Of a stretch of DNA of 64,000 bases, positions 32,077-58,500 are shown one piece after another. The stretch lies in NCBI GenBank assembly GCA_947488235.1, contig CANLAQ010000007.1, positions 1 through 64,000 on the forward strand, given 5' to 3'. The notes under the pieces were generated by a model. It was not told the DNA's origin, searched no databases, and saw nothing but the letters and a program-made list of their open reading frames with translations. Both the position numbers and the translations under genes were made by a program. The number at the start of each line of letters is the position of its first letter. Within the stretch, counting starts at the first letter, position 1. The DNA comes from Flavobacteriales bacterium. GTDB taxonomy: Bacteria; Bacteroidota; Bacteroidia; Flavobacteriales_D; Crocinitomicaceae.

Positions 32077-32823
32077 TTAATGGCGAATAATCACCTTTCT
32101 ATTAAAGGGTTTGAAGCTCTGACCTTCAAAGGTGATGAAATAAACACCACTCTTGAATTCAGACACATCAAGTTTTTTGTTTGAATAAATAGTTTCTTTT
32201 AAAATAACATTTCCAAGTACATCAACCATTTTCATACTCGCAGTTTCAGCGCCGTTTAAGGTAATGTTTAAGTAATCACTTGAAGGGTTAGGAGCAATAG
32301 TTACAGAAGCAACATCTTTGATCGGCTTAACTGCCGCAACAATTTCAATTAAAAGATCTACTGAATCAACAAAGTTAATGCCGTCTCCTGAAACATAGTA
32401 ACGATAATGAGCCAAACAAGGCTGGCTAAAATCGTCTGGGTCAATTGAAACTTTCAGTTTTCCATATTCTCCATCACCAATAGGAAATAAAGCACTTACT
32501 GGCGTTGTCCAAGGATTGCTTGCCATTTGACCTGATGAAAAACAGGTCCCACCCCAAGGATCTGTTGCATGTCCCCAACAAATTGCATCTGTCCAACCAG
32601 CTGGAACATCTAAACGAGTTCTTGTAATGCGCCAATTGCGGGTTAATCCTGTATTGTTGTAAATGTTAAAAGGAACATCAAAAACGGCTAATGATTGTGT
32701 GCCCATGCCGTAAGTTTGACCCGAAAGCTCTGTGGTTTGGCCATCAACATAAATATTGATGTTATTTTGAGCAAAACTGCTAAGTGAGAAGAAAGTTAAT
32801 AGAATGAAAATATATAATTTCAT
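32077..32823 (-). CDS. Secreted protein with type A T9SS sorting domain
   Basis: Exported 248-aa protein. The signal peptide MKLYIFILLTFFSLSSFAQ directs the choice of start at 32823; a reading from 32871 would add 16 residues ahead of it. The mature part is a beta-rich domain with an immunoglobulin-like look (DVPFNIYNNTGLTRNWRITR, WGGTCFSSGQM) of unknown function. The C-terminus is a type A T9SS domain (IAPNPSSDYLNITL, MVDVLGNVI, FKSGVYFITF). It should be exported to the surface or medium. Confidence 0.82.
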   Translation of the reverse strand: MKLYIFILLTFFSLSSFAQNNINIYVDGQTTELSGQTYGMGTQSLAVFDVPFNIYNNTGLTRNWRITRTRLDVPAGWTDAICWGHATDPWGGTCFSSGQMASNPWTTPVSALFPIGDGEYGKLKVSIDPDDFSQPCLAHYRYYVSGDGINFVDSVDLLIEIVAAVKPIKDVASVTIAPNPSSDYLNITLNGAETASMKMVDVLGNVILKETIYSNKKLDVSEFKSGVYFITFEGQSFKPFNRKVIIRH

Positions 32824-32845
32824 GATGTTGGAGATTCGTTTAAAA

Positions 32846-32853
32846 CAAATATA
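32846..32853 (-). promoter_or_regulatory. Putative -7 box for the T9SS protein gene
   Basis: TATATTTG on the minus strand, ending 22 bp before the ATG at 32823. It supports that start. Confidence 0.45.
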
Positions 32854-32916
32854 ACTTAAAATATGCCACATTCAAAAAACCACACTTATTTTTTATATTA
32901 TTTAAATTCAATAATG

Positions 32917-32970: not shown

Positions 32971-33483
32971 ATGAAAAAAGCACTCTTTTCTCTATTATTT
33001 ATCTTCGTTGCGAGCTCATATTTTGCTCAACATGACGGCGGACTTCTTGAAAATAAAAAACTTCCTTCTGTCAAGTTAAAAGACATGAATGGGAATGCTG
33101 TAAATACTGCTGAATTAGGTTTCAAGGGACCTGTAGTAATTAGTTTTTGGGCAACTTGGTGTGCCCCCTGCAAGAAAGAATTAAATACAATTCATGATTT
33201 ATATACCGACTGGCAAGAAGAAACGGGCGTTCAATTGGTTGCCGTTTCCATAGATGACGAAAAAACAAAAAGTCAGGTTCCTATTTATGTTAATGGAAGA
33301 GCTTGGGAATATTTAGTATTAATGGATCCTAATGGAGATTTTAAGCGTGCAATGGGTGTGAACAATGTTCCCCATACTTTTTTGATTGATCAACAAGGAA
33401 ACATTGTCTATTCTCATAACAATTATGCGCCTGGTGATGAGGAAAAATTGTATGAAGAAATTAAAAAATTGACGAAACAATAG
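32971..33483 (+). CDS. TlpA-like periplasmic thioredoxin
   Basis: Exported 170-aa thiol-disulfide protein. The signal peptide ends near residue 19 (ASSYFAQ). The thioredoxin fold carries the active site WATWCAPCKKE (cysteines 64 and 67) and the cis-proline in NNVPHTFLID near residue 133. It is first of a tight operon: the DUF6029 barrel gene begins 6 bp downstream, then an Omp28-like lipoprotein that has its own CxxC. Reduction or maturation of the partner proteins is a reasonable inference. Confidence 0.9.
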   Translation: MKKALFSLLFIFVASSYFAQHDGGLLENKKLPSVKLKDMNGNAVNTAELGFKGPVVISFWATWCAPCKKELNTIHDLYTDWQEETGVQLVAVSIDDEKTKSQVPIYVNGRAWEYLVLMDPNGDFKRAMGVNNVPHTFLIDQQGNIVYSHNNYAPGDEEKLYEEIKKLTKQ

Positions 33484-33488
33484 TCTGA

Positions 33489-35150
33489 ATGATTAAAAAA
33501 ATACTACTAATACTGTTGCTTTCACCTACGGTCTTATGCTCACAAGGTAATTTAACAGGAAACATTGAAAGTACTTTTCAATATTTAAATCAAGATTCCA
33601 TTATTGGAGCCAATCAACCTGTATCAAAAGGTTTGCTTAATTCTTACATGAATGTTTTTTACACGAACGGAAACTTTAAGGCTGGGATGCGTTTTGAGTC
33701 TTATTTGCCTCGAATTCAAGGTTATCCAAATCGTTTTGATGGCACTGGAATAGGTATGCGTTACATTGGCTATGTGAATAATTTAGTGGATGTAACTTTA
33801 GGTTCCTTCTATGAGCAATTTGGCAGTGGACTTGCATTCCGAGCTTATGAAGACAGAGCCTTAGGTTATGATAACATGATGGATGGTGCTCGAATTATTG
33901 TGCGTCCCCAAAAAGGGATTGTCATTAAAGGTGTTTATGGCTATCAGCGCTTGTCTTTTCAAAAAGGACAAATAATTCACGGTGATGGAATCGTTAGAGG
34001 TATTGACGGCGAAGTACATCTAAATGAGGCCATTGATAAAATGACATCCTTCCCCTTGGACATTGTATTAGGCGCTTCTTTTGTAAGTAAATTTCAGGCA
34101 GATGATGATGAAGCATTGATACTTCCTCAAAATGTTGCTGCATACGGTGGTCGTGCCAAGTTGAGGTATAAAAACTTTTATCTAGACGGCGAATATATTC
34201 TGAAAGAACAAGACCCTTCGAGTGACAATGGAAAAATTTATAATTATGGTCATGCAGGCGTATTTAATTTAAGTTATACTCAAAAAGGTTTAGGGATTTT
34301 GGTCTCTGGTAAATCTGTCGATAACATGAGTTATCGTTCGGATAGGAATAAGGATTTACAAGATGTTTTTATCAATTATCTACCATCACTGAATAAAACC
34401 CACACCTATAATTTGGTTGCTACGCTTTATCCTTATGCTACACAACCATTGGGTGAGGTAGCTTTTCAGGCAGATGTATTGTATACTTTTAAAAAGGGAA
34501 CAACATTGGGTGGAAAGTATGGAACTACCATTGGTGGTAATTTTTCAACTACCTATAGACCTATGCAATACACAAGTGGAATAAATCCCTTAGATTCTAC
34601 AGGTGTATCGTATACTTCTCGCTTATTTGCGATGAGTGACAGTCTCTATTGGCAAGACATTAATTTTAATATTTCTAAGAAGTTCAATAAAAAATTCAGT
34701 ACAATCTTAAGCTTTTATAGTATTAAAATAAACAATGATGTCGCTAAAATATCTAATGATGCACAAGGAATTATCCACGCCTCTATTGGGGTTATTGAGT
34801 TATCGTATAAAATAAATACCCATCACTCTTTACGCGCTGAATTTCAAGGATGTTTTGTCCAAAAAGAAAATGGATTGATTAAGGATAAAGGAAATTGGGC
34901 AACAGCATTGATAGAATACACGATTTCTCCAGGTTGGTTTTTTAGTTTTATGAATCAATATAATTATGGCAATCCCGTGATTGACAAACGCGTTAATTAT
35001 CCAATTCTAACCTGCGGTTATATTAAAGACGCAACGCGCTTTACGGTTTCCTATGGTCGTCAGCGTGCCGGTTTATTTTGTGTTGGTGGGGTGTGTAGAT
35101 TCGTACCAGCGTCCAATGGATTAACATTGAGTTTCACCCAAAGTTTTTAA
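33489..35150 (+). CDS. DUF6029-type outer-membrane beta-barrel protein
   Basis: A 553-aa protein with a signal peptide ending at about residue 18 (TVLCSQG) and alternating beta strands to a C-terminal phenylalanine (TLSFTQSF), typical of outer-membrane barrels. N-terminal motifs GNIESTFQYLNQDSIIGA and GSFYEQFGSGLAFRAYEDR fit the DUF6029 family of Bacteroidota. Function unknown; it could be a transport pore or an assembly partner. Genes on either side encode thiol-active exported proteins. Confidence 0.78.
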   Translation: MIKKILLILLLSPTVLCSQGNLTGNIESTFQYLNQDSIIGANQPVSKGLLNSYMNVFYTNGNFKAGMRFESYLPRIQGYPNRFDGTGIGMRYIGYVNNLVDVTLGSFYEQFGSGLAFRAYEDRALGYDNMMDGARIIVRPQKGIVIKGVYGYQRLSFQKGQIIHGDGIVRGIDGEVHLNEAIDKMTSFPLDIVLGASFVSKFQADDDEALILPQNVAAYGGRAKLRYKNFYLDGEYILKEQDPSSDNGKIYNYGHAGVFNLSYTQKGLGILVSGKSVDNMSYRSDRNKDLQDVFINYLPSLNKTHTYNLVATLYPYATQPLGEVAFQADVLYTFKKGTTLGGKYGTTIGGNFSTTYRPMQYTSGINPLDSTGVSYTSRLFAMSDSLYWQDINFNISKKFNKKFSTILSFYSIKINNDVAKISNDAQGIIHASIGVIELSYKINTHHSLRAEFQGCFVQKENGLIKDKGNWATALIEYTISPGWFFSFMNQYNYGNPVIDKRVNYPILTCGYIKDATRFTVSYGRQRAGLFCVGGVCRFVPASNGLTLSFTQSF

Positions 35151-35151
35151 T

Positions 35152-36090
35152 ATGAAAAGCTACTTAACCTTCTTTGCAATAGCTTGCATTTCCTTGATTA
35201 TGGTCTCTTGTGATCATGTAGAAAATCCTTATCCTCCTGGAACAAGCAATGAATTAGACACTACACTTTATCCTGGAAATTGGAGTAATTATGTGGCAAA
35301 TGAATGGCCGGTTTTTTCACCGAATGCTAATTTATTGCGCAATGTTCTTATTGAGGATTATACGGGTCATAAATGTATTTTTTGTCCTGCAGCAGGTGAC
35401 TTAGCCCATCAGTTGGAAGAGGCAAATCCTAATCGAGTTTTTATTGCTTCTATTCATGCTGGACCGGAAGGAATTGGAGATTTTCAAACTGTTTCTGCAC
35501 CTGAATATCCTCTTGACTTTACCAATCCTCAAGGAGCAGCAATAGGAATATATTTTGGCGCCAATGATGGAGGATTTCCTGGTAATCCAAGAGGGACCGT
35601 GAACCGCTTTAATAATGGCACCATTTTTCAAAGCCCAACCCAATGGACCAATATGACCAATACGATGTTGGCAGACAATAATTTAAAAGTAAATATGCAA
35701 TCAGCTCTTAATTATTATCCCACTACTAAAGGAGCTTTTTTACATCTTGAAATAGAAAAATTGGATGCAACATTAAACGATGCTTTGGGTGTTGTTTCTT
35801 ATTTGATTGAAGATTCATTAGTCGGTGATCAGAAAATGAGCGATAATAGTCACAATACAGCCTATACGCATCGTGACATCCATAGAGGAAATTTAAATCA
35901 ACTTACTTTTGGTCGAACACTTACCGGTGCAGATCTTATCAATGGAAAGTATTATGTTAATTATAGTTTTTTAGTTCCCAATCAGTTAGATGGAAATTAT
36001 AATGCACAAAACATGCATATTATATCATATGTATACAATAAAGTAACTTGGGAAATTTATCAAGTGGTAAAACAAAAGATTGCACCCTAA
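35152..36090 (+). CDS. Omp28-related lipoprotein with thioredoxin-like CxxC
   Basis: A 312-aa predicted lipoprotein: lipobox cysteine at residue 20 (LIMVSC). Near residue 68 it has EDYTGHKCIFCPAAGDL, with cysteines 75 and 78, the hallmark of the Omp28-related family, whose N-terminal part resembles a thioredoxin fold. The rest is beta-rich, ending QVVKQKIAP. The gene starts 2 bp after the barrel gene, so co-translation is likely. It should sit at the outer membrane, possibly facing outward. Substrate unknown. Confidence 0.8.
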   Translation: MKSYLTFFAIACISLIMVSCDHVENPYPPGTSNELDTTLYPGNWSNYVANEWPVFSPNANLLRNVLIEDYTGHKCIFCPAAGDLAHQLEEANPNRVFIASIHAGPEGIGDFQTVSAPEYPLDFTNPQGAAIGIYFGANDGGFPGNPRGTVNRFNNGTIFQSPTQWTNMTNTMLADNNLKVNMQSALNYYPTTKGAFLHLEIEKLDATLNDALGVVSYLIEDSLVGDQKMSDNSHNTAYTHRDIHRGNLNQLTFGRTLTGADLINGKYYVNYSFLVPNQLDGNYNAQNMHIISYVYNKVTWEIYQVVKQKIAP

Positions 36091-36135: not shown

Positions 36136-38556
36136 GTGATCAAGCTGCGTACTTTTTTTTGGAATTTACTCCCGTGGTTTGCGCCCTTATTTTTTCTCTT
36201 TTTGCTTTTGCGAACTTTTGTTTATTTTCAATTGCAGGGTTCACCAATTATTGCTGATACGCATCTTTCTTTTATTTGGTGGGGCTTGCTTTATGATTTT
36301 TTACTGGTGTTTGGAATTTGGGGTGTTGCATCTCTTTTATTTACTAGTTTACAAGCGCTCCTTCCAAAAGTAAAATTTACTTTTTTATTTTTTCTTCTTC
36401 CCCTAACACTACTATATTCGAATGTCATTTTAGATCAATGCTATCTTACCATGGGGGAGCCGCTTGATGAATCAATTTTCTTGTTCAGTAAAGAAGAATT
36501 GTGGATTATTTTAGGGCTGCAACAGCGGCTTACTTTAGAAACAAGTCTTGCGCTCCTTGCACTTCTCCTTATTTACTTTCTACTTGTCCGATTATTCTAT
36601 TTTGTATTAAAAAACAAGCCGTTTCTTTCCAACTCCTATTTATTTTATTTCTCGTGTTTGGCACTAGTGTACCTTCCATTTTCTAGATATACAAAAACAG
36701 AAAACTTGAGCCAAGAGGCTATCGTAAATAATAGATTGTTATTTTTTTTAGATGAATGTATTCGCTTTTCAATTCAACCTGAACGCAGTTCAAAGAAAAT
36801 TTACAAAGCAGATTTTAAGAATTTAGATCCGGAATTTTATGGTTCAACTCAGACAAATGGAATTTTTCCAACATGGCATAAATTACCCAATAAAAGTTCC
36901 TTAAGTCCATATTTTAATAAAACGAGCAATGGCAAACCCCCAAATATTGTTTTTATTATTGGCGAAAGCATGTCCTCTGATTTCTTTGGCGAACGAAGTA
37001 AAAACACAGGTTGCATAATGCCCTTTATGGATTCTTTGTCAAAAAAATCGCTTTATTTCCCGAATACTTTTTCAACTTCCCAGCGTACTCACAATGTACT
37101 ACCATCTATTTTTTCTTCAGTCCCAAATGTTTTTGATGGTGCTGTATTTCAACAAATAGCGTATCCAAATCATTGGTCTTTAATGGGCTTGTTAAGAAGA
37201 TCTTATTTTACAAGTTTCTATTGTGGAGTAGATCTTCAATATTTAAATATGCAGGGATTCATGGATTATCATCAAGTAGATTATTCTGTTAATCATTGGT
37301 CTAAAGCAAGAGTTCAGCACTCAGATAGTATCAATAGCCCTTGGGGATTCCCTGATGAAGACCTCTTCAAACAAGCTATCGAAGATGATTCACTTTCAAA
37401 GCACCGAGATAAAGCCAGTTTTAAAATCTTTTTAACCATCAGTTCTCATGACCCGTTTATTTATCCAGAGAAGGCTCTGTATACCCAGCAAGTTATCGAA
37501 AAAGCAGCGACAATATCAAACCCTATAAATCGCAACTTAATTTTAAAGAATGCCTCCAATTTTGGTTCTTTTACTTATTGTGACGCACAAATTAAAGCCT
37601 TTCTCCAGGAACAATCCAAATTACCGGAGTACCAAAATACGATTTACATCATTACTGGCGATCATGGGTCTGAGTTATATAATGCAAGCAAGTTGTCTAA
37701 ATATAATGTCCCGTTGGTTATTTTCTCACCTTTATTGAAGCAAAACTTTAAATCTAAGGCACTTGTTTCTCATAATGACCTTACTCCAAGTTTACTGAAT
37801 TATTTGCGCTTAAACTATCCAATAGCTGTTCCAGACAGCATTCCATTTGTTGGAAAAGAATTACTTTTCCTTCCTTATTTTAAGGCCAATCGAGCTTTTG
37901 TTTTTACAACGAATAAATTGAAAAGCGAAGAAGGAATATTTTACGACAAAGTTTATTTGGCCAATCAAGTTTATTTATTGCATAAAGATTTGTCTCTTAC
38001 AAAAAAGCCAGATTCAAAAATAGGACCTTTTTTTAAAGAGCAGTTTTTTCAATATCAATTTTTTAGTCAATATTGTATTAATCAAAATAATCTTGTTCCA
38101 ACTCAGCAACACCATCTATGGTATGAAAATAGGGGGTGGGTTCAAGTTCAAAGTAAAGCCTCCGAATCTGATCAAGTAAACTCCAACAATCGCTTGGTTT
38201 TTTTAGGGTCTTTTGCAATAGTGCCTAAACAACAACAAAATATTAAAATTCAGGTTACCGGAATGGTGTTTTGTGGTAAGAAGGCTAATATAAATCTTTC
38301 AGGCGATGTTGTAATCAAACTAAAACACAACCGCTGGTTGAATAAAGAACAACTACTTTTCAAAGGGATTCGCCCTAATTTTGAGGAAAGATTCAAGCCC
38401 AATGCGTGGAATAAAATTGTTTATACGATAGAATTTAATCCATCTAAAACGAAAAAATTAAACAATAGGAAAGAGTTGTATTTGTATTTATTTAATGATC
38501 AAAAGGAAAGGATAAAAATTAAGGATCTAGAATTAATTTTGAGTAAAAAAGTTTAG
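36136..38556 (+). CDS. LTA synthase-like membrane sulfatase/phosphotransferase
   Basis: An 806-aa inner-membrane enzyme of the alkaline phosphatase/sulfatase superfamily. About five transmembrane helices fill residues 1-185. The catalytic domain (about 265-580) has NIVFIIGESMSSDFFGE with the metal-binding glutamate, STSQRTHNVLPSIF with the nucleophile threonine, and IITGDHGSELY with the late metal ligands. Relatives transfer glycerol- or ethanolamine-phosphate to envelope glycans or lipids. The protein has an extra C-terminal beta-rich domain of about 120 residues (from LVFLGSFAIV). The start is GTG; the overlapping ATG leads straight to a stop. It follows the Omp28 gene by 45 bp. Confidence 0.83.
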   Translation: MIKLRTFFWNLLPWFAPLFFLFLLLRTFVYFQLQGSPIIADTHLSFIWWGLLYDFLLVFGIWGVASLLFTSLQALLPKVKFTFLFFLLPLTLLYSNVILDQCYLTMGEPLDESIFLFSKEELWIILGLQQRLTLETSLALLALLLIYFLLVRLFYFVLKNKPFLSNSYLFYFSCLALVYLPFSRYTKTENLSQEAIVNNRLLFFLDECIRFSIQPERSSKKIYKADFKNLDPEFYGSTQTNGIFPTWHKLPNKSSLSPYFNKTSNGKPPNIVFIIGESMSSDFFGERSKNTGCIMPFMDSLSKKSLYFPNTFSTSQRTHNVLPSIFSSVPNVFDGAVFQQIAYPNHWSLMGLLRRSYFTSFYCGVDLQYLNMQGFMDYHQVDYSVNHWSKARVQHSDSINSPWGFPDEDLFKQAIEDDSLSKHRDKASFKIFLTISSHDPFIYPEKALYTQQVIEKAATISNPINRNLILKNASNFGSFTYCDAQIKAFLQEQSKLPEYQNTIYIITGDHGSELYNASKLSKYNVPLVIFSPLLKQNFKSKALVSHNDLTPSLLNYLRLNYPIAVPDSIPFVGKELLFLPYFKANRAFVFTTNKLKSEEGIFYDKVYLANQVYLLHKDLSLTKKPDSKIGPFFKEQFFQYQFFSQYCINQNNLVPTQQHHLWYENRGWVQVQSKASESDQVNSNNRLVFLGSFAIVPKQQQNIKIQVTGMVFCGKKANINLSGDVVIKLKHNRWLNKEQLLFKGIRPNFEERFKPNAWNKIVYTIEFNPSKTKKLNNRKELYLYLFNDQKERIKIKDLELILSKKV

Positions 38557-39809
38557 TTCTTTATTTCCCCAAGTAATTTGAAATCAACCCTTCTGTTAAT
38601 ATCTCTGCCTTGTTGTGTGGTATTAGAGGCAATAGGTTTGGTAAATCCATGAAATTCTACTATTATTCTTCCTGTATCAACACCTTTTTGTACTAAATAA
38701 TCTTTAACAGCATTGGCTCTTTTTCTAGAAAGATCAAGGTTATATGCTGCATTTCCTACATTATCAGTATGTCCCGCAACTACTAAATAAATATCGGTTC
38801 TTTCAAGCAATGCTTTTGCAAAGGCATCTAATCCTGCAAATTGACTTGGCTTAATTACAAATTGGTCAAAACCAAATACTACATTTTCAGGTTGTTCTAT
38901 TTCTTTTTTTGCAATGATTATGGTATCTATATCAACAGGAGGTATTATTTTAACAGGCGGTAAATAATAATAGGAAAATAGGTCGTCATGCTTTCCCTTA
39001 CTGTTTCTATTGCTTGAAAAGTAACCACTAGTGTCGGAAATTGCTGCAAGTGCTAAATCATCATAAATCGAATTATAACCATCTCCAAGTGGTTTTATAG
39101 AATCATTTTCAAAAACAAACAGGTCAAATCCACCAATACTTAATGTGTTATTGGAAGTAAAATAAATTTTATTCTTATATACAAAAGGGAAACATTCTAT
39201 TGAGTCTGAATTGATGTTCTTGAGCGCTATTGGTCGAGACCAATCCTTTCCATTGTAGTCAGAGTAATAGAGATCGTATTTCCCTCTTCCTTTTTCAAAA
39301 TCTGAAGCATAGTATAGTTTCTTATTTACTTCATCATAAAATGGATGCGTTACATTGCATCCTTCGTTATTTAAAGGAAATGCAAGTGGCAATGTCCAAG
39401 CATCTCCTTCTTTTGCAGAATAAAAAATCCCTAATTTATTTTTCTTTGAATTACTATTATTGGAGAAAAACACTAAAGTTCCAGCATCATTGGAACTTAT
39501 TGGTCCGTCATGCATAGTTGAATTAATGGAAACTGGTATTTTGTAATCTTTACTTTTTAGTGTTATTTCTTTGATTCCACATTGATCTACCCTGAATAAG
39601 TCTGTATATGGTTTAGCAATGGCCTCGTCAATTAAAGCTTCATCAACGCTAGTGTTTTTGGAACCTGACACGAGAATTAATTCTTGTCCAAAGGGTCGAA
39701 TACCAAAGTCATCAGTTAGGGTATTGTAACATACAGTATCCACCACCAATGTTTGCGCATTGACCGTCCCAAACAGGAGGGAAATAAATAAAAGGAAGTA
39801 TTTAGGCAT
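38553..39809 (-). CDS. OmpA-family outer-membrane protein with PD40 repeats
   Basis: A 418-aa exported protein. The signal peptide ends near LLFGTVNAQ (residue 19). Residues 60-270 contain WD40-like beta-propeller (PD40) repeats, such as KLYYASDFEKGRGKYDLYY and KIYFTSNNTLSIGGFDLF. The C-terminal OmpA domain has the peptidoglycan-binding motif GHTDNVGNAAYNLDLSRKRA. Length and layout resemble the OmpA-type partners of PorP/SprF proteins in T9SS and gliding loci (PorE-like). It lies 4 bp from the PorP/SprF gene and is the last of a three-gene set with the giant surface protein. Confidence 0.87.
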   Translation of the reverse strand: MPKYFLLFISLLFGTVNAQTLVVDTVCYNTLTDDFGIRPFGQELILVSGSKNTSVDEALIDEAIAKPYTDLFRVDQCGIKEITLKSKDYKIPVSINSTMHDGPISSNDAGTLVFFSNNSNSKKNKLGIFYSAKEGDAWTLPLAFPLNNEGCNVTHPFYDEVNKKLYYASDFEKGRGKYDLYYSDYNGKDWSRPIALKNINSDSIECFPFVYKNKIYFTSNNTLSIGGFDLFVFENDSIKPLGDGYNSIYDDLALAAISDTSGYFSSNRNSKGKHDDLFSYYYLPPVKIIPPVDIDTIIIAKKEIEQPENVVFGFDQFVIKPSQFAGLDAFAKALLERTDIYLVVAGHTDNVGNAAYNLDLSRKRANAVKDYLVQKGVDTGRIIVEFHGFTKPIASNTTQQGRDINRRVDFKLLGEIKN

Positions 39810-39812
39810 AAA

Positions 39813-40742
39813 TTAGTTGAAAAAACGAGGGCTATCAGCTTTCTTATTGGTTTTATTTAATTTTAATCTGATCGCCAATTCATGTGATTGCACGGAAACC
39901 CTATTCAATTTATTTACGGGGTAGGCATAAGAATATCCAATGTATAATTTATCCTTTACATTCAATCCAATTATTGCTCCGAGACTTCCTTTCAAGTGAT
40001 ATGTCGCTCCAAAATCTATCAGTTTATTAGCGGTCAATATCACATTTAAATCTAAATTAACGGGTCCACCATATCCATACATGGTCATTACACTAGGACG
40101 AATATCTAAACGATTGCTCAACTTTAGGTCAGCTCCAGCATAAGAGATATAGCCACTTTTGTTGTCAACATACATACTCATATCCATTCTATTAAATCTA
40201 AATGCAGTTACTCTAGGCTTAGAAAAACCAACATAAAACTTTTTCGAATACAATAAGAATCCAAATCCCGCATTAAAAGATAATCCTGTAGTTAAATTTT
40301 GAACCATATCTGGATCACCTGGATCTGTAGTCTGAAGCTCAGACAACATTACATTTTGATTGATTCCAGTAAGTTTTAGCCCTGTTGAGAATTTCCAATT
40401 ATTGTTCAATTTTAAATGGTATGCACCCACTAAGTTTACACTTGTGGATTGTACTGGACCTACCTCGTCTGCTACGATACTAGCGCCCATTCCAAAATTA
40501 TCAAATACATGAAAATTCCCAGAAATAGTTGCTGTTTGCGGTGCCCCCGGCATTCCAACCCAATATTGTGACCCTAATACCGAAATATCAGAATAGTCAT
40601 TGGCCCCCGCTTGCGCAGGGTTTAAGGTAAGGGCATTAAAGCGATACTGCTTGAAACTTGGATCATTTTGAGCATTTGCTGCACTGCTTATTGCTAGCAT
40701 TGCAAGACAAAATGAAAACCCTATTATTTTTTTATTTTTCAT
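39813..40742 (-). CDS. PorP/SprF family type IX secretion membrane protein
   Basis: A 309-aa outer-membrane barrel of the PorP/SprF family. The signal peptide ends around SAANAQ (residue 25). The mature start has the family pattern DPSFKQYRFNALTLNPAQAG (about residues 27-46), then SVLGSQYWVGMPGAPQT, and the C-terminal VQSHELAIRLKL strand. PorP/SprF-like proteins are needed for secretion or attachment of T9SS cargo with type B tails. The neighbouring giant protein has exactly such a tail and ends 24 bp upstream, so this is its probable partner. Confidence 0.92.
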   Translation of the reverse strand: MKNKKIIGFSFCLAMLAISSAANAQNDPSFKQYRFNALTLNPAQAGANDYSDISVLGSQYWVGMPGAPQTATISGNFHVFDNFGMGASIVADEVGPVQSTSVNLVGAYHLKLNNNWKFSTGLKLTGINQNVMLSELQTTDPGDPDMVQNLTTGLSFNAGFGFLLYSKKFYVGFSKPRVTAFRFNRMDMSMYVDNKSGYISYAGADLKLSNRLDIRPSVMTMYGYGGPVNLDLNVILTANKLIDFGATYHLKGSLGAIIGLNVKDKLYIGYSYAYPVNKLNRVSVQSHELAIRLKLNKTNKKADSPRFFN

Positions 40743-40766
40743 AATATTTTTTTGAATGCTGTTATT

Positions 40767-43700
40767 TTATTGTTTTACTCTATTGATGTAAACATATCCC
40801 TTGAAGGTATCACCTTCAGTTGTTAATACATAGTAGTAGGTACCATCAGGTAATGCTTGACCATTTTCTGATCTTGAACCATCCCAATCATTTTGGTAAT
40901 TACCACTTGAATATACACGGTTTCCATAACGATTGAATACTTCAAGATTTTTTGTATTGTAGGTTTCAAGATTTCTGATTACAAATAAATCATTGATATT
41001 GTTCCCATTAGGAGTGAAGGCTTCTGGAATAAATAATTCAATTGGATCAGCGATGTCATCACAAGAATCATCAATCCCATCTAAATCAGTATCAATGCCA
41101 TTAGTTTCAACAGTTAATGTGATATTAGCAACACTTGTATTTCCATTGTTATCGGTAATGGTAACGGTTAATACATTTTGACCAATGTTTCCACAATCAA
41201 AATTGGTTTGACTTAATGATGTAGTAGCTATTCCACAATTATCAAATGACCCTGCATCAACATCATTGAACGCAACTACTGCATTTCCTTGTAGATCTAA
41301 TATTACAGTTATATTCTGCAATACTGGTGTTGGATTTATATCATCTGTAACAGTGATTGTTTGTGTTCCTGTATTCGTATTACCACTCGCATCTGTTACG
41401 GTCCAAGTAATAATTGTAGTTCCTACCGGGAAGTCAACAGGTGCATCGTTTACGACAGATGCAACAGTACAGTTATCATTAGTAATAGCATTACCGATGA
41501 TCACATTTGATGCTACACAAGCATTGTTAGTAGATAACATCAATGAAGCTGGAGGAATAATGGTAGGTATCTGATTGTCAATTACCGTAACTGTTTGTGA
41601 TGCCGTTACAACATTTCCATTATTATCTGTAACAGTCCAATTCACGGTTGTTGTACCTAAGTCATAAACTGTCGGTCCATCATTAACTAAAGAAGCAATT
41701 CCGCAGTTGTCAGATACTACAGGGTTTCCTAAATTGACATTAAATGCATTACAACTGTTGTTTGCAAACACTGTAATATTTGCCGCAGGAATTAGTATTG
41801 GCGCAACATCATCCGTAATGGTTACTTTCTGAATGGTGTTGGTACTATTACCATTGACATCAATTACCGTCCAGGTAACAAAGGTTTCTCCAACAGCGAA
41901 CGCGCTTGGAGCGTTATTCGTCACAAATGCTACCCCACAATTATCCGAAGTAATTGGAGTTCCTAAATTCAAATTATCAGCAGTACATCCTGAGTTGGTA
42001 ACTGCTGTTAAATCATTAGGTGGAATAATTGATGGATTGATATTATCTACTATGGTAACATTTTGTGTAGCTGTTCCAATATTCCCACTGATGTCTGTAG
42101 CAGACCAAGTAACAATTGTTGTTCCTACCGGGAATGCAGCAGGAGCATTACTTGTAATTGAAGCTACGGTACAATTATCTAATGCAATCGCAGTTCCAAT
42201 ATTCAATCCTGTTGCTGTACAAGAAGTATTTGAACTTGAATTAATGTTTTGTGGAGCAATTACAACTGGAGCAATTACATCAGTAATGGTAACATTCTGA
42301 GTTGCTGTAGCTGTATTACCACTTCCATCTGTAATGGTCCATGTTACTACAGTTATTCCAACATTGAAAGCATTCGGAGCATTATGCGTTACAGAAGCAA
42401 TCGAACAGTTATCAGCAGTTACAGGTGTACCAAGCGCTATATTCAACGCCATACAACCGTTATTGGTTGTAGCATTTACAGCAGCAGGTGCCGTAATGGT
42501 TGGATTAACATTATCAGTAACGCTTACAAGTTGCGTTGCATTGGTAGCATTACCACTTGCATCGGTTACAGTCCAAGTAACAGTAGTTGTTCCCAAATTG
42601 AAAGTTGCCGGAGCATTGTTGGTAACCGAAGCTACCGAACAGTTATCAGCAGTTACTGGCGTACCTAATACAACACCAGTTGCTGTACAAGCAGTATTGG
42701 TAGTAGTATTAATTGCAGCAGGCGCTGTAATGGTTGGGAAGATATTATCAATTACTGTAATGGTTTGTGTAGCGGTGGCAGTGTTACCACTTGCATCAGT
42801 TACGGTCCATGTTACTGTAGTATTTCCTATATTGAAAGTTACCGGAGCATTATGCGTAACAGAAGCCACAGAACAGTTATCAGCTGCTACTGGCGTTCCA
42901 AGATTTAAGCCTGTTACCGAACAAGTAGCACTTGCATTAGCAGTGATATTAGCAGGAGCAACTATAGTTGGATTAGTAGCATCAACTACTGTTACCGTTT
43001 GAGTTGCAGTAGCAGTAAGACCACTTCCATCTGTCACCGTCCAAGTTACAGTAGTACTTCCAATCGCGAAAGTTGCTGGTGCATTATTTGTAACGGAGGC
43101 TACTGAACAGTTATCTGAAGTTACTGGCGTTCCAAGTGTTACACTAAAGGCTGAACATGCATTATTAGCATTAACATTTACCGCTGCAGGAGCGGTGATG
43201 GTTGGATTTACATTATCAATAACAGTTACAAGTTGTGTTGCATTGGTAGCATTACCACTTGCATCTGTTACCGTCCAGATTACGGTAGTAGTTCCTAGAT
43301 TGAAAGCTGCCGGAGCATTGTTGGTAACAGATGCTACTGAACAATCATCAGCAGTAATTGGCGTACCTAATAAAACCCCCGTTGCCGTACAAGCAGTATT
43401 GGCAGTAGTATTCATAGCAGCAGGCGCTGTAATTGTTGGGAACACATTGTCTTGTACTATTACGGTTTGGTTCGCAGTCGAACTGTTTCCAGCAATATCA
43501 GTAAAGGTCCAAGTAATAACATTTGTACCTGGTATAGAGTAACTTAATGGTGTAGAAGCAGTACCTGTAATTACTCCTGAACAGTTGTCTGTTGTTGTTG
43601 GAGGAGTCACTGTTACCGAACAAGACCCAGTAACTGTTGCTAAAGTTGGAACAACTGGAGCAATATTGTCAGTAACGGTTACCGTAAAGCTACAAGTACT

Positions 43701-46700
43701 TGTATTTGTAGATGCATCTGTAGCAGTATAAGTAACTGTTGTGCTACCTGCTGTGAAGGTACTTCCTGACGCATTACTCACCGTATATTGAACCCCTGGG
43801 CAATTGTCTGAAATTGCAGGTGCAGTCCAATTAACGACAGCATTACAAGAATTTTGTGAGGTTCCTACACTAATGTTTGCAGGACAATTAGTAATAATTG
43901 GATTTTGATTATCAACTATTGTTATTGTGAAGGAATACAGGGTATTGTTTCCTGATTGATCTACTATTTCATAAGTTTGAGTAGTAACACCAACAGGGAA
44001 AATATCACCTGATGTAAAACCAGTATTATCAATTTGCGTCATATTTGCCGTACAATTATCACCATAAGTTGGTAGCGCATAATTAATTACTCTTCCGCAG
44101 ATACCTGAGACAGCTGTATTGGTAATACTTGCAGGTGTAACTATGAATAATGGACTAATCGTATCAGCAACTGTTACTGTTGAGGTACATGTTGATACAT
44201 TTCCAGACAAATCAGTTACTGTTAAAGTTACCGTGTTGGCACCAAGATTTGAACAATTAAAATTAGAATTATTTATTGTAGTTGTTGCAATTCCACAGGC
44301 ATCGTTAGATCCATTGTCTACCTGAGCAGCAGAAATACTTACAAGTCCTAAAGCATCTAATTGCGCCGTGATATTCTGGCAAATCGCGCTTGGAGGAACT
44401 ATATCTTGCACAGTTATCATACTAACACAAGTATTGGTGTTTCCACTGCCATCAGTTACCGTCATTGTGAATGGATTTGTTCCAATATCAGCACAAGTGA
44501 AAGTAGATTGATTTAAAGTATAACTGGAAATACTACAGTTATCGACTGAAACATTGTTGACCATAGCACCTGTAGCAGTAAAACTGCCCAGAGCATCTAA
44601 TAAGAAAAGTGTATCGTGGCAATGAGCAACAGGATTTTGTACATCAAGTACAGTTACTATTTGTGTAGCACTTGTACTAAGACCACTTCCATCTGTTACC
44701 GTCCAGGTAACTGTTGTATTACCTAATGGGTATACTGCAGGCGCGTTATTTACCACTGAAGCAACGGAACAATTGTCATTATACATCGGGGATCCTAATG
44801 CTACACCAGATGCTGTACATATATTTAAATCATTATTTACAGTTACTGCAGATGGTGCAGTAATGGTTGGATTTTGATTATCAATTACGGTAACTACTTG
44901 TGTTGTTGTAGCTGTATTTCCACTACCATCGGTTACCAACCAAGTTACAGTCGTATTTCCTAATGGATAAGAAGACGGACCATCATTGGTGACAGATGCT
45001 ACCGAACAGTTGTCATTGGTAACAGGACTACCTAAGTTGACTCCTGTTGCTGCACAAGAAGCAGCGTCAGCATTAACTGTTACAGCAGTTGGAGCAGTAA
45101 TTGTTGGAGCAGTAATATCCACAACAGTTACAATAACTTGGTCAGAACTAGTACAGCCATTATTATTTCCTGTTAGGGTATAAGTAGTAGTGGTCATTGG
45201 TGTAACTATGGTGGTCGGTGTTGTTGAGGAGTACCCAGCAGGGCTTGAACTCCATGTAACAGGACTGGTTCCGCCAGGTTGGTAGGAAACGATGACATTA
45301 CTGAGAGTCAAGGTTACAAAGTCTGACCATGCATCTAAATCCTGAGGTCTAATACTTAGTATTTGACCATTAACAATATTTCCGTTGAAATTGGTAATCG
45401 TAATTGGGGTATTACAAGATGTAATATTTACCCAAGCAGATCCATTCCAATACTGCATTAAGTAATAAGAATTGTATAAATAACAAGTTATACCTGAATA
45501 AACCAATATTGGCGTGAAGGTGATTGAAGTAATAGTTGCTCCTGCTGGCGCACCACTTAATGTTAAATTCACAGGAGTCCCTGAATCATCATACATAGCA
45601 CCCGATGCGCTTAAAGGACCTACTACCGCAGGAAGTGTTGATGTTCCAGTAAGAGTTACTGGCCCACCTGGACAAGTAGAAACATCTGCTCCAGCATTAA
45701 CTGTTGGATAATTATTAATGGTAATTAAACTAGAAGTTGAAACCACCCCAGAAGGGAAGCCGCAACTGGTATTGTTTGCAAACCAGAAATTAGTTTCATT
45801 CACAAGATCAAAAGAAAGGTTATTGGTACCTGCAGTTGATGGCGCTGTTACAGTTAAATAATAAGTCTGAGTTGCACCAGAAACTAAGCCATTAGCATCA
45901 ACCCTGATAAAATAATCAAGATCACCATTCCATTTTATTCCCACATTAATATCTGGTGCAGCATTCGTCCATGTTGCTGTTCCTGTATTGGTAAGGGTAA
46001 TGCTAACTGTTCTAACTTCTCCAACACACCAGTTGGAAGAACCAGTATTCATAGAAACAAAGGTACTTTGCCAAACTGCGCCATTGGTTAATACAGTTAC
46101 AGTCGAACTGTAACCAGCAGTTCCCGAACATTTGGTCAACATACATCTGTATAGAGAAGTAACACTTTGATTCACCGAAGCTGTTGCAGCTGTAGCACCT
46201 AAAACATTTGACCAAGTTGCGCCATTATCAGTTGAAACTTGCCATTGATAACTTAATCCATCAGGGGAGGGCGGATTTAAAAAACTTAGAGTAAAGTTCG
46301 TTCCAGAACAAACTCCGCTGACACTTGCTTGCGCGTTGACACCACTTGGAGCAATATTGTCCAAGATCGTCATGGTTACTTGAGCAGAACCAGGAGCATT
46401 AGTACATCCAGTGGTTTGATTGGTATACGAAATATTGTACAAGGTTGTAATTGCGGGAGTTACATTTTGAGTAAAAATATTAGTTCCAGAACTTACCGCC
46501 GGAGCTGGAAGTGCTGAACCATTTCCTGTCCATACAGTAGTATAGTTCGTAGGAGGTGTGAAAATCCAAGATTGAGGAGCACTCACAGCAATTTGCGCAG
46601 TGGTTCCAGACCAATAGTTTACGGTATTTGGTGTTACTGCACAATTTGGAGCAGCAGCGCCAATAGTACCAGAAGGACTATTTACACCAATTGATTTAGC

Positions 46701-49700
46701 ATTGGTAGATTGTGTTTGAAGACCTATGATACCCACCAATCCTGTTGTTTCATATAGAATTACTTGGAATTTTTGATATCTAGTAGAATAAGCATATTGA
46801 TTTACATAATATTCAACAATAAATCTTCTGTTTGGGGCGTAACCATTTGTCCAATAGCGGATATGGGTATTGGAGCCGACATAACCACAATGTAAGTCAT
46901 TGGAACCCGCATAGATGGCTCCTAAAGGATCAACAGTATTGGGTAAAGCACCAATGATAAAGTCACCTAATGCAGTAGCATTATAGGCACCAAATTGGAG
47001 TACACCATTCGTTCCAACATTAATCGTTGTGTAATTAGTTCCAAAGAAGTTATAACTAAAGCCAATTGGTATGGCGCTCCAACCACCATCATCTAAACTT
47101 CCAGAAGCTAAACCAGCAACTGCTGCTCCATTGTTACATAAATAAGCAGCTCCAGATGGAATGGTGAAAGGCGTTAAACTAGCACATGCAGCCGTAAAGT
47201 TTCCAGCGGATAAACCTGTATTGATGGTTGCTGATGTTCCCGGACAAACTCCGTTGGCACTTGTTGTTAAATTTGCTGTAGGCAATGGGTATAATCCAAT
47301 ACTTTGAATAGCAGGAAGACTGTAACAACCATTATCTAATGTTTGCACTTGTACGGCGCTTGTTTGCGTAATTCCTGCGGTTATACTCGTACCAGTTGTA
47401 CCGCTCAAAGAAGGAGATCCTTCTAATGAAGTCCAAGCGTAGGTACCTGAAGAGCCAGAAGCGTTAAGTGTAACTGATCCTCCGGTTCCACAAAATTGAC
47501 TTTGTGAAGCAGTAATTATCGGTGTAGCAGGCTGTGACCCTAAGGAGAAAGAAGTAGAACTTGTAGCGGTTCCTGTCATGTTCGACACCGTAATTGGTCC
47601 AGAAGCACCCGTTCCTGGTATAGCATTTATCGTTGTACTATTAACAATGGTAAAAGAAGATGCATTCACGCCGCCAAATTGAACAGCCGAAACTGTATTT
47701 AAGCCGGTTCCCGTTATTGTAACGCTAACAGCTGGACAGCCACTTGCAGGTATAGAGGTAATAGTAGGTAAAGGAACTGCTAAAACAGTTAATTTATAAT
47801 CTTCGAATTCGCCCCAAGAGTTTGGCCCACAGGCAGTTGTTGCACCCAAATAACCGTTAGAAACGCGCATTCGATAAGTACCAACAGCTTGAGCTCCAGC
47901 AACATTAACTACGGTTGAACCACTTGCAACATAAGCATTTGAATTGTAAACACTTTCTCCAGCATCAGCAAAATCTAAGTCATTGTTCCAATCTATCCAG
48001 AGTTGGAAATAATCACTTGAATAAATTGAATTCATATTAATGGTAAACGATGAACCTTGATATGCTGAAGCTCCAATGGTAGAATAGTAATTTCCATACC
48101 CCCCTGCACTAGCGCCTGTAACATTAGTAAAGTTGGTAGAAGCACCTACCGTATTTACATTGGTTAAATAATACGTTGTTGATCCGGCAGGTATACAAGC
48201 AATAACAGAAACCAGTACGGGATTTGAAATCGTTGTATTACCCGTACAAGTAACTATACATTGAAAATAGCTTAATGCTGTTATGGTAGCGGTATAAGTT
48301 GAATTTGTTTGCCCAGCAACATTAGTCCAAGGCCCAGTAGAAGAACTTGCCGTTTGCCATTGGTAGGTAACGCCGGTTCCAATAGTATTATTTTGTAAAG
48401 AAAGATTGACTGTTTGCCCACTTCCTACGGCTGATGATGAGGTTAAGGTATTTCCTGGTGCAGGAGTTCCTGAACATGGTGGAGGGGCTAAAATATTAAT
48501 GCAATAATCTTCGGTCTCTCCCCAAGTATAAGTACCTGTTGAAGCTGCTCCAAAAGAAGATTCAACTTCAATAACACGCATTCTAACTGTTCCTACCGCT
48601 GCAGTCATCGGAATATTCACTGTTGTTGAAACAGTTGTACCCCCAACTGCAAAAAAAGTGTAGGGAGAAGTATAAACGAGTTCTCCAGCATCCGTGAAGA
48701 CTCCGTTGGCATTGTAGTCAATATAAACGGTCACTACTCCTTGATAAGAAGCCCCACCGCACATTCCAACTGTAACTGAAAGAGGATAAGAAGTACCTTT
48801 ATACATATTTGGCGCGGTTAAATATCCAGCATAATTGGAATACATAGAAGCCGCAGATCCAGGTCCTGGAGCCGCAACTCCACAAGAAGAGGAATTGCTC
48901 AAAGAACCAAAAGTTACATTGAAGATCTCGTCATCTGCTGTGGATGTGGCCGATGATGAAGGGTAAGAGAGACAAGAACAAGGTCCACCACCATTGATGC
49001 TTATATATAAGCTGGTGGAATTTGATGATATCCCGCTATTAGCACAAGTTATAATTCTTCTATAATAGGTCGCCGTACTAGTATTTGTAACTAAAGTTGC
49101 AGCTGTAGCACCAGTGATATTTGTCCAAGTAACATTGTCCGGTGAAGATTGCCATTGGTAGGTGAGACCAGTCCCTACAGCACTACCTGTGGTTGATAGA
49201 GTGAAATTTGTACCTGGACAAACGGTAGTTAATGTGGAGACTGTAGTTCCGCCTGTTGGAGTGCCTGCACAGGCTGTATTAGAAGCTGCAGTAAGTTTAA
49301 TATTAGGTAAAAAGGTATTCCTTGTTGTTGCAGTTGGCGGGGCACTTGGGTTTGGATTAGTAAGATCACTATAATAGATAATAGAACTGTTTGCAGCACC
49401 TGCGGTATATCTATACATGGTACTTACATAGGTATAGGAAGCATTGTTTTCGTCACACGCCACCACTAAATTCCCCCCAGTCCAAGTAAAAGGTGTCTGC
49501 AAAGTAACGGTTACCCAACCTGTAGGCCAAGTATTTACATTTCCACTATAAACCTGAGTCATTGCAGCAGTAGACACCCAATTTGTTGTTGTTGCAAACG
49601 CTGCTTGAGCAGTATTACCGAGAAAAATCGTCCAATTGTTATTATTAGTTGTTCCAGCAGCATTTGCAGTATTAATGTACCACGCAATTTGAGTTATTTG

Positions 49701-55521: not shown

Positions 55522-58500
55522 TTATGGGGTGTTGCTGTCTGGTTTATTTGCTGCTGGAATCATTTTTTGTAGATCCATATTTACAGGTTGTCCACTCGGT
55601 ACAGCACCACTTGGCACTCCTGGAACTTTAATAAATCCATAATGCTGACCCATACCACCCAAATAAGCTTGAAGACTTGCCAGCAAGGGGCTATATTTAC
55701 CGCCAATTCCTCCTGAAACTTCGCCATTATTGCTCGCTAATTGTTCTAATTCTGAATACATTCTAGGGGCAATTATTTTGTAAACCCTATTAATACTTTT
55801 ATAAATACGCTTGGCTAAAGGCCCGTTCTTATTACCCAAAGTAGGATCTGCTGCAATGATATACATTTTAAAACTTGCGTCTAAGGCAGCATATAAATCT
55901 TCCACATTATCAGGCTTCGAACTTATGCGAACATCGGTGTGCTCATAGTAGGCGAAAATTCTTTCGTAATCGTCCATTAATGCCATTCCAAGGGCTTCAG
56001 CCTTTGCTTTATTTTTAGTAACATAGTATAATTGTACATATTCGTGTAGTACACCACTACATTTAGCTCTGATATCTTGGCCATTAAAGTTATAGGCATC
56101 ATGCATTTTGTTTAATTCCAAAGACGCCATTGGATCACATTGATTCACTTCACCGAAATCCATAACATTTTTCAAAGGCATTTTTGCAAGAGACATATCT
56201 AAAAGAGCACATGCTTTTTTGTTATTGCCCTTATTAGCAAATTGTTCTGCCAGCAACATGAAATTCACACGATATTGAACGGTATGACGACGAGCATAAT
56301 AATCAGTCAGAACACCTGGCATATTCATTTTTCCATAGCTATAAGTATGACTTAAATGTTGGTCCATTTTTCGAATATTGTAAAAATTCATAACATTAGA
56401 CCTCATAGGATTTAATTCATAAGCCATTCCAACTTGTTGAACATAACCACTACTCAACAAAGCAATTGAAAATGCAGAGCCGCGATTACTTGAGAAATAA
56501 ATGCCTCTTTTCCAGTCATTATTGGCAACAATATCCATCATCATGATTTCATCTCTAGTCAAATAACGATCTCTTTTAGAATCAAACTCAAATGGAATCC
56601 TCGTTGGGCAAGTTGCCATTTCCTGTTTAGTAATCACTCCGGACTTAAAAGCATTGTTTTTATTTACTTTCAAAGTAAAACTAGAAGAAGGGAAGAAACT
56701 CACTTTTCCATCTTTATTATTCAGCGCATTGGCATCGTCTCTCACAAAAGCCATCGCTTCAGCAAAATCTACGGACATCCATGGTTTTTCGAAATCTTGA
56801 ATCAATTTTTGTAATTCCGAAGCAATCGCATCATCAATTTTGATGGCGCCACTTTGATTGGCCTCCAAAATTTGAGCAATCGCATTGTATTTTTTGTAAA
56901 TATTACCTTCAAGATCAGCATCATTTGAAATCAAATCACTTTGAAGTTGATTAAAGGCCACTTGAATATCCGGATTAACTACCGTAATTGAAGGTATAAA
57001 CCCAGCCATTTTTGCGTTAAAATATTGAATCGTCTGTTGCGCAGGGATTCGGTTATTTTTAACCCTCATGTGAATCACCTTTTCTTTCAAGGCATCATCA
57101 CCAGAGGAACCAAACAAATCAAGTAAACCAAGGAAATATACTTGATCCGTATTTCCCGCATACATTAAGATCTGATCTTCTCTAAATTTAATAGGTAAGG
57201 GATCAGATTCGTAAGCTTTCATTTTCATTTGATTGGTGTACCAATCAGTCCCCATAAGGGAAAGATTACAAACCCTCACATCAGTCCTTACACCTTCTAC
57301 CTCTTGCATGTACCACAATGGGAAAGTATCATTATCACCGTTGGTAAAAATAATTCCATTTTTTTCGCAAGATTGCAGGTAATTAAATGCCAGATCACGG
57401 GCGCTTGTCTTACCACTTCTATCGTGGTCATCCCATCCTTGGAAGGCCATGATTAAAGGCACCATAACTCCAAGCACTGCTGCGAGGACGGCTCCATTTT
57501 TTTCAGTTTGCAATACCTTTTTCAAGAGCAACATAGTTCCTATTAACAAAGCAGCAATTAATAAAATCATGGACCATAAAATAGTATTAGCCATACCATA
57601 TTCAGCACCCATATCTGCCAAAAGCATGAGCACCAAAATAGCTCCGGCCCAAATCGCCGCTTTTTTAAAGTCTTGTTTTTGGAAACGCATGAACATGTCG
57701 TAGAGGGCATAAACCCCAATTCCTATCCACATGGCAAAGAAATAGAACGACCCGGCATAGGCATAGTCTCGTTCTCTTGGTTCCATTGGTTTTTGATTTA
57801 AGTACACTAAAATTGCAAAACCTGTAAACATAAAGACCAGTGATAAGACAAAGGCATCTTTTGGAGCACGATAAAAATGAAAAAACAATCCAATTAATGC
57901 AAGCGTCAAAGGAAGTAGGAAAAATCGATTGTGAGAGGCATTGTCTTCTGTATATTTTGGAGCAAATTCTTGACTCCCAAGTCTGGCTTCATCAAGAACG
58001 GTAATTCCCGTCAACCAATTGCCGCGCATGTTATCTCCATGTCCTTGAATATCATTTTGTCTTCCAGCAAAATTCCACATAAAGTAACGGATGTACATCC
58101 AATTGACTTGATATCTAAAGAAATAAGTAAGATTTTCACCAAAGGTTGGCAATCGTTTACCGTCATTTCCGATATCTGTTAGCGTTTCATCATTTGGATC
58201 GTAACCAGACCAATTTTCATATCCTTGTTGATGCGATGGATTTCCTTCCGAATACATTCTTGGGAACAGTGTTTGTTGCGCGTAAGTCGCTATCCCTCCA
58301 TGGCGAACAGAAGCATTACTTTCATAATACTTTTCCTCAATACTGTAAGCACCTCGATGTTCGAGCACCCATTTCTTGGCATCTGCTTCTTTTTCAAAAG
58401 CCTTAATGTCATTGTCGCCTTCCATAATGACGAATCGTTGTAAATAAAATGGAGAAAAATCCTTCCATTCATCCCTTGAAGTTAATTGAGGACCATCTTC

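Follow-up and report, generated by a model that had tools for sequence, protein, structure and literature searches.

A TlpA-DUF6029 barrel-Omp28 gene unit widespread in Bacteroidota and its possible role as a thiol relay across the outer membrane

A three-gene unit encoding a TlpA-like thioredoxin, a DUF6029 outer-membrane barrel, and an Omp28 lipoprotein is genuine and widespread in Bacteroidota, a conclusion that is well supported. The unit is described here from a stretch of 64,000 nucleotides, hereafter the window, that forms positions 1 to 64,000 of contig CANLAQ010000007.1 in the 2.45-Mb draft genome of a Flavobacteriales bacterium of the Crocinitomicaceae (GCA_947488235.1). As to function, we infer that the unit may be a thiol-disulfide relay across the outer membrane, running from TlpA by way of a dithiol in the barrel to thioredoxins on the cell surface, and we give this reading an even chance. 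A relay is the best-supported reading, and it has no counterpart that we know of or could find: the literature searched, mostly without subscription papers, held neither a description of the unit nor a thiol relay across the outer membrane.

The gene unit across Bacteroidota

The initial annotation placed three genes side by side, 5 and 1 bp apart, and saw a CxxC motif in each of the outer two, and both observations were confirmed. All three genes lie on the + strand as open reading frames of 170, 553, and 312 amino acids: TlpA at 32971..33483, the barrel at 33489..35150, and Omp28 at 35152..36090. TlpA carries WCAPC (first cysteine, residue 64), and Omp28 carries KCIFCP (first cysteine, residue 75). 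Among named contigs, the closest barrels are those of a Flavobacteriales metagenome-assembled genome (96% identity) and a Crocinitomicaceae metagenome-assembled genome (82% identity).

Gene order was followed in loci from across the phylum. DUF6029 was searched for in 395 genomes drawn across Bacteroidota, 98 of which were positive, and stretches reaching about 6 kb to either side of a match, or less where the contig ended, gave 98 loci, two of them from one genome, which with the window make a set of 99. Genes were taken as the longest open frames, a crude calling in which starts and small overlaps are unreliable, and were labeled with TlpA and Omp28 profiles that had been built on those loci starting from the proteins of the window. 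The same-strand gene directly upstream of the barrel is TlpA in 72 of the 99 loci, with a divergent TlpA in 5 more, and the operon-type TlpA profile has just 8 matches in the entire window genome. Thus, adjacency of TlpA and the barrel goes beyond chance. The same-strand gene directly downstream is Omp28 in 51 loci and a TlpA-like protein in 19, and within about 6 kb of the barrel a TlpA-type gene is found in 81 loci and Omp28 in 68. In a named set, comprising the best 80 of 576 relatives and therefore an uneven sample of the closest matches, TlpA is directly upstream of the barrel in 70 loci, Omp28 is directly downstream in 68, and both are in place in 62. The neighborhood conservation anticipated by the initial annotation was borne out, and DUF6029 does not occur mostly without Omp28 or TlpA.

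The association extends to joint presence in whole genomes. Omp28 was found in 83 of the 395 phylum genomes, 76 of them also with DUF6029, where about 21 would be expected if the two were independent; an Omp28 gene is therefore present somewhere in 76 of the 98 DUF6029-positive genomes. In a further set of 199 genomes from one genus in which the unit is patchy, DUF6029 was found in 64 genomes, Omp28 in 67 at an E value of 0.001 and in 62 over the cut-off, and both in 60. The exceptions were four genomes with the barrel alone and two with an over-cut-off Omp28 alone, both drafts less than 90% complete. The barrel and the best Omp28 match share a contig within 6 kb in 57 of the 60 and lie on different contigs in 3. 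Operon-type TlpA (E value, 1e-35) was found in 62 genus genomes, every one of them with the barrel, and the two barrel carriers without it have weak DUF6029 matches. Fisher values for joint presence (1e-37 or smaller) ignore shared ancestry.

A variant unit is found at 18 loci of another lineage (L110, L112-L128; genome family f24). There, TlpA accompanies a distant DUF6029 barrel with a CxxxxC motif, and the Omp28 slot is filled by CxxC lipoproteins (13 of 18 loci, often CPHC) and/or thioredoxins with a tail for the type IX secretion system (T9SS) (16 of 18). At least one such lipoprotein or tailed thioredoxin occurs in every locus, and one tailed protein was confirmed by curated models. The closest Protein Data Bank (PDB) chain to the window TlpA is 2m72, which we take to be PG_2175 of Porphyromonas gingivalis. 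In that organism, PG2173 is an Omp28 lipoprotein (PMC9722745) and PG_2174 is an uncharacterized protein listed from vesicles (PMC4335976), so the same operon is likely present; PG2175 is not named in the thioredoxin list in the accessible text of PMC2907840. We note that one genome, G180, has two complete units on separate contigs (L089 and L091). A scan of viral contigs with the barrel alignment gave 41 pattern-matching stretches, none of which encoded a relative by tblastn.

The barrel and its cysteine pair

The barrel matches DUF6029 (PF19494) at 577 bits against a cut-off of 27, profile positions 3 to 538 of 538 being covered by residues 3 to 553. Its AlphaFold2 model (mean pLDDT, 91.9; pTM, 0.85) is an outer-membrane barrel of 24 long strands, which run from residue 21 to 552 with no extra domains. 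Among the 99 aligned barrels, just two columns hold cysteine in at least 8 rows: residue 531 (96 rows) and residue 536 (97 rows). Conservation was ranked over 96 barrels, with L067 (a reading frame disrupted in the assembly), L069 (truncated), and L130 (no motif and a score under the cut-off) excluded there and retained in the cysteine-column, gene-order, and surface-signal counts. Cys531 and Cys536 are present together in all 96 intact rows and are the two most conserved of the 553 positions.

Where the pair sits follows from the fold. The cysteines (CxxxxC; codons, 35079..35096 on the + strand) belong to a GxxCxxGxC motif immediately before the last strand, and in the model they are held by two short strands, 528-532 and 535-539, that form a hairpin. 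The last strand of outer-membrane barrels ends in the periplasm, and by this topology argument the hairpin is predicted to face the cell exterior. The best-conserved loops of the barrel, 108-130 and 526-541, are both on the outer side of the model, and the periplasmic turns, 47 residues in all, contain none of the 40 most conserved residues.

An invariant pair might serve the barrel itself. Cys531-Cys536 could be a structural or gating disulfide, with TlpA and Omp28 acting as folding or repair factors for a barrel that does other work, such as transport. We regard this maturation reading as unlikely, although it is the main rival to a relay. In the model, the invariant cysteines are near enough within the hairpin for a disulfide, and LptD, an outer-membrane barrel with functional cysteines that is among the barrel's Foldseek matches, is known to depend on disulfides for its assembly. 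The cysteines of LptD, however, join its barrel to a periplasmic domain, whereas in the DUF6029 barrel both lie in one predicted outer hairpin and thioredoxin genes stand on either side. The evidence that speaks against maturation comes from Omp28 and is given below.

Comparison with other barrels places the DUF6029 protein near the ushers by fold. FimD/PapC ushers, whose barrels have 24 strands, are its best solved structural matches (3ohn; Z, 17.9; rmsd, 4.5; 374 residues), at about 10% identity. The N-terminal, plug, and C-terminal domains of ushers are absent from the model, however, no usher family was matched in Pfam at an E value of 0.1, and no pilus genes were seen beside the barrel. 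At that threshold the only Pfam match is DUF6029, and membership in the TonB-dependent (SusC-like) transporters is not indicated. Foldseek matched 364 barrels at an E value of 0.001. A PDB sequence search with the barrel alignment returned RecA entries, but these held no qualifying stretch and were taken as an artefact.

In the literature searched, DUF6029 is named in one paper (PMC9603273, 2022), as a possible polysaccharide-secretion barrel. In its accessible text, some Wzi-type barrels near OPX genes are similar to DUF6029 by HHpred, and a secretion role is suggested. That the barrel exports polysaccharide and stands among thioredoxins incidentally is very improbable, however, as this reading gives the invariant cysteine pair no use and the recurrent neighbors are thioredoxins, flanking genes not having been scanned for polysaccharide families. 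Wzi is outside the 50 structural matches listed for the barrel, a listing that excludes nothing.

Thioredoxin-like proteins on either side of the barrel

TlpA is a TlpA/ResA-like thioredoxin that is over the cut-offs of Pfam AhpC-TSA and Redoxin (80.2 and 79.1 bits; cut-offs, 26-27). It is predicted to be soluble in the periplasm, with a signal peptide that, judged by eye, has no lipobox. Its CAPC motif occupies residues 64-67 (33160..33171, + strand); C64, P66, and C67 are invariant in 35 aligned orthologs, and WCxPC is found in the window TlpA and in 146 of 147 barrel-adjacent TlpA genes. At 85 bits the protein falls below the NCBIfam cut-off of 170 for ResA (NF002854). WCxPC proteins of the TlpA/ResA type are usually reductants. 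The window genome has one match to DsbD, in a frame that runs off a contig end. In several loci, L053 and L149-L151 among them, the gene just upstream of the small TlpA encodes a long TlpA-labeled CxxC protein (~480-540 amino acids), possibly a further secreted client.

Omp28 likewise appears to be thioredoxin-like. It is a member of the Pfam family Omp28 (PF11551; 52.4 bits; cut-off, 34.9), as is PG2173 (structure, 2r2c), and with 116 bits it does not reach the cut-off of 150 for NCBIfam lipoprot_Omp28 (NF033782). In its predicted structure (pLDDT, 90.6), Cys75-Cys78 open a helix in the first domain, and an Ig-like domain follows. Two alignments, of 63 and 55 sequences, were picked by hand, and among 55 aligned Omp28s, C75 and C78 of the CIFC motif (residues 75-78; 35374..35385, + strand) are invariant, as is Pro146 just before a strand, in a thioredoxin-like arrangement. 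Profile comparison of Omp28 with TlpA aligned 42 columns around the CxxC at a probability of 63%, which is suggestive only and tells less than the predicted structure. The CxxC motifs noticed by the initial annotation therefore lie on a thioredoxin-like fold in both flanking proteins, in Omp28 by predicted structure.

The best PDB match of the Omp28 model is HBP35 (PG0616) of P. gingivalis (5y1a; Z, 23.4; rmsd, 2.6; 226 residues), well ahead of the next, an Agrobacterium protein (Z, 17.9), and its C-terminal domain matches 2r2c (Z, 11.8). By the model and by C75/C78, the window Omp28 shares with HBP35 a thioredoxin-like domain and an Ig-like domain with a CxxC. The two differ in that HBP35 is a hemin-binding T9SS cargo, exported through the Por (type IX) system (PMC3120885), whereas Omp28 has a lipobox and is encoded beside the barrel. 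Recombinant HBP35 reduces insulin with dithiothreitol and requires its CxxC to do so, and the authors termed the role of its thioredoxin domain unknown (PMC2907840). No electron source for surface HBP35 is named in the accessible literature. Surface thioredoxins like HBP35 are also discussed in Muribaculaceae, in a preprint (PMC13404670).

HBP35 brings in a further alternative, in which the hairpin binds metal or heme, the thioredoxins keep thiols or metal reduced, and the barrel is a channel for uptake or export. HBP35 binds hemin, and hemin-free growth requires the protein (PMC2907840), the preprint ties Muribaculaceae surface thioredoxins to iron uptake by gene neighborhood (PMC13404670), and Foldseek matches the barrel to, among others, the copper transporter OprC. 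OprC, however, is one of the 364 barrels matched, the Pfam search at an E value of 0.1 found no TonB-dependent receptor family, and no metal transport gene was seen to recur next to the barrel in flanks that were not systematically annotated. We consider metal or heme handling improbable.

Omp28 looks to be bound to the cell surface, by a lipid or by the type IX route, a prediction that comes from its signals. The window protein has a lipobox cysteine at residue 20 (35209..35211, + strand), invariant in the 55 aligned Omp28s, with acidic residues at +2 and +5. A strict pattern found the lipid signature in 79 of 119 downstream Omp28s but overlooked clear lipoboxes and took in some CxxC sites. 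By a relaxed rule of our own, which like the strict pattern is not a trained predictor, among the 51 Omp28s directly downstream of the barrel in the phylum loci 34 have the lipid signature, 15 have a type IX tail, 2 have neither, and none has both; in the named set the signature is present in 68 of 68. An acidic residue at +2 to +6 accompanies it in 34 of 34 phylum and 67 of 68 named proteins, counts that stand without a background rate. The tail profile was seeded with 10 TIGR04183-matching proteins and the product of a fourth gene of the window described below, and all six tailed Omp28s put to NCBIfam were over the TIGR04183 cut-off. That one operon slot should use two unrelated ways of reaching the outer face suggests that selection maintains the surface location.

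These signals bear on maturation of the barrel. A folding factor kept on the outer face by two routes would be odd. Extra CxxC thioredoxin or Omp28 proteins occur at many loci, and 45 of the 99 loci encode one or more TlpA or Omp28 proteins with a T9SS tail. The predicted position of Omp28 at the surface and the additional secreted thioredoxins are better accounted for by a thiol relay than by maturation.

Three further observations concern Omp28 and T9SS. Contig C22 of the window genome (L003:27-2042) encodes a second Omp28-family protein of 671 amino acids with the CxxC motif TWCQWCP and a type IX tail (TIGR04183, 46.8 bits), which is a candidate secreted thioredoxin-like client of a relay. 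Among hand-picked genomes, SprA scores over its cut-off in 39 of the 40 carriers of the unit against 32 of the 40 noncarriers (Fisher, 0.03), but T9SS is so common that this says little about dependence of the unit on it. Finally, the accessible literature describes no redox role for the Omp28 family; a T9SS-exported protein annotated as Omp28 related, 00502 of Paraprevotella clara, recruits trypsin and promotes its self-degradation, and its authors assign it WD40 and Ig-like domains (PMC9477747).

A possible thiol relay and the genes around it

The initial annotation proposed that two redox-active proteins on either side of a barrel pass reducing power to, or mature disulfides in, an outer-membrane complex. 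The conserved unit and the thioredoxin-like CxxC proteins on both sides agree with that idea. The cysteine pair of the barrel, the surface signals of Omp28, and a fourth neighbor with a cysteine pair go beyond what that annotation noted. Gene order, cysteine conservation, and joint presence are observed, and the folds and the surface location are predicted; physical contacts and the direction of electron flow, like access of TlpA to the pair and the final substrates, belong to the proposal that follows. TlpA would be held reduced in the periplasm, probably by DsbD, and would reduce the Cys531-Cys536 pair in a hairpin positioned at the outer mouth of the barrel or dipping into its wide lumen. 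The pair would in turn reduce the CxxC of Omp28 on the outer face, where Omp28 would be kept by its lipid or, in other lineages, delivered by the type IX system. Omp28 and other secreted thioredoxin-like proteins would then act on surface disulfides, with the fourth protein, which likewise has two conserved cysteines, as a client or partner.

Several points weigh against a relay. TlpA went unrecognized within the stretch examined in 18 of the 99 loci. DUF6029 occurs without an Omp28 match in 22 of 98 genomes of the phylum sample, and Omp28 occurs without DUF6029 in 7 of 83, including one genome (G156) with a strong Omp28 match. Outer loops of the barrel are overall less conserved than its strands (0.33 versus 0.38), and authors who studied HBP35 saw no part for it in oxidative-stress protection (accessible text of PMC2907840). 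Moreover, the contacts, direction, access, and substrates proposed above are inferred, and the predicted outer hairpin of 16 residues may be beyond the reach of a periplasmic TlpA, unless the hairpin dips in or TlpA enters the lumen. Usher barrels pass folded pilus subunits, and a visitor the size of a thioredoxin is therefore conceivable in a barrel that matches them. We tentatively extend the proposal to a complete extracellular reducing system, in which TlpA would dock in or enter the wide 24-strand barrel and the hairpin would act as the shuttle from lumen to surface. Numerous lipid-anchored and type IX-secreted thioredoxin-like proteins, namely Omp28s and their T9SS-tailed relatives with the fourth protein as a client, would then keep disulfides reduced on the surface and beyond it.

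Known systems resemble parts of such a relay. The pathways from DsbD to ResA, TlpA, or CcmG would share its first step, as the window genome has a ResA-like thioredoxin and a DsbD gene. To our knowledge, periplasmic reducing pathways end in the periplasm, whereas the unit would continue into a cysteine-bearing outer-membrane barrel and a surface thioredoxin. MtrCAB porin-cytochrome conduits have the same plan of a periplasmic carrier, a wide barrel, and a surface carrier, with the difference that thiols would stand in for hemes. The Mtr barrel, 6r2q_B, ranks 11th in Foldseek for the DUF6029 barrel, among many large barrels and with no kinship shown. The heme motif CxxCH is absent from all three proteins: CxxC is followed by K in TlpA and by P in Omp28, and the barrel has no CxxC.

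If the relay exists, it adds an outer-membrane-spanning stage to disulfide biology, and about a quarter of the sampled Bacteroidota (98 of 395) would have a thiol counterpart of the porin-cytochrome conduits. It would also give a function to the conserved DUF6029 family, otherwise without a role, and bear on how aquatic, gut, and oral Bacteroidota handle outside disulfides, metals, and oxidants. The unit is a concrete candidate electron source for the exported thioredoxins of Bacteroidota, of which HBP35 is the studied example.

A divergent gene beside TlpA (32077..32871, - strand), whose true start, judged from the alignment, is probably an internal ATG at 32823, is a proposed fourth member, and the coordinates of the unit should be extended left to 32077 to take it in. 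Its product, a small protein, appears to be secreted, with a type IX tail (Por_Secre_tail, 46.7 bits, over the cut-off), and may be a client or partner of the unit. Of 179 loci, 87 have a relative close to the barrel, either divergent from or codirectional with it; among 86 aligned members shorter than 400 amino acids, all have Cys98 and Cys110 (numbered along the window's open reading frame) and 78 have the type IX tail by our own profile. A search of the genus genomes with the full alignment was swamped by the shared tail and matched 199 of 199, and the 29 near full-length rows among the matches listed all fall in barrel-positive genomes. The fourth protein may be linked more closely to Omp28 than to the barrel, because in five genomes of that genus (G454, G496, G528, G535, and G549) a relative adjoins a second, large Omp28 on a contig other than that of the barrel.

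On the other side of the unit, the next gene encodes a sulfatase-domain protein at 36136, for which, by comparison of lengths only, the one equal-length neighbor among the named loci is in the closest relative (L131). Farther along, window positions 38553-49973 appear to encode a very large secreted surface protein together with a PorP/SprF dedicated to it: an OmpA-family gene (38553-39809) and a PorP/SprF-family gene (39813-40742) stand beside a 3,068-amino-acid HYR/GEVED protein that carries a CHU_C type IX signal (40767-49973). Finally, positions 55522-59598 encode a 1,358-amino-acid protein that matches the TMEM260-like protein O-mannosyl-transferase family.

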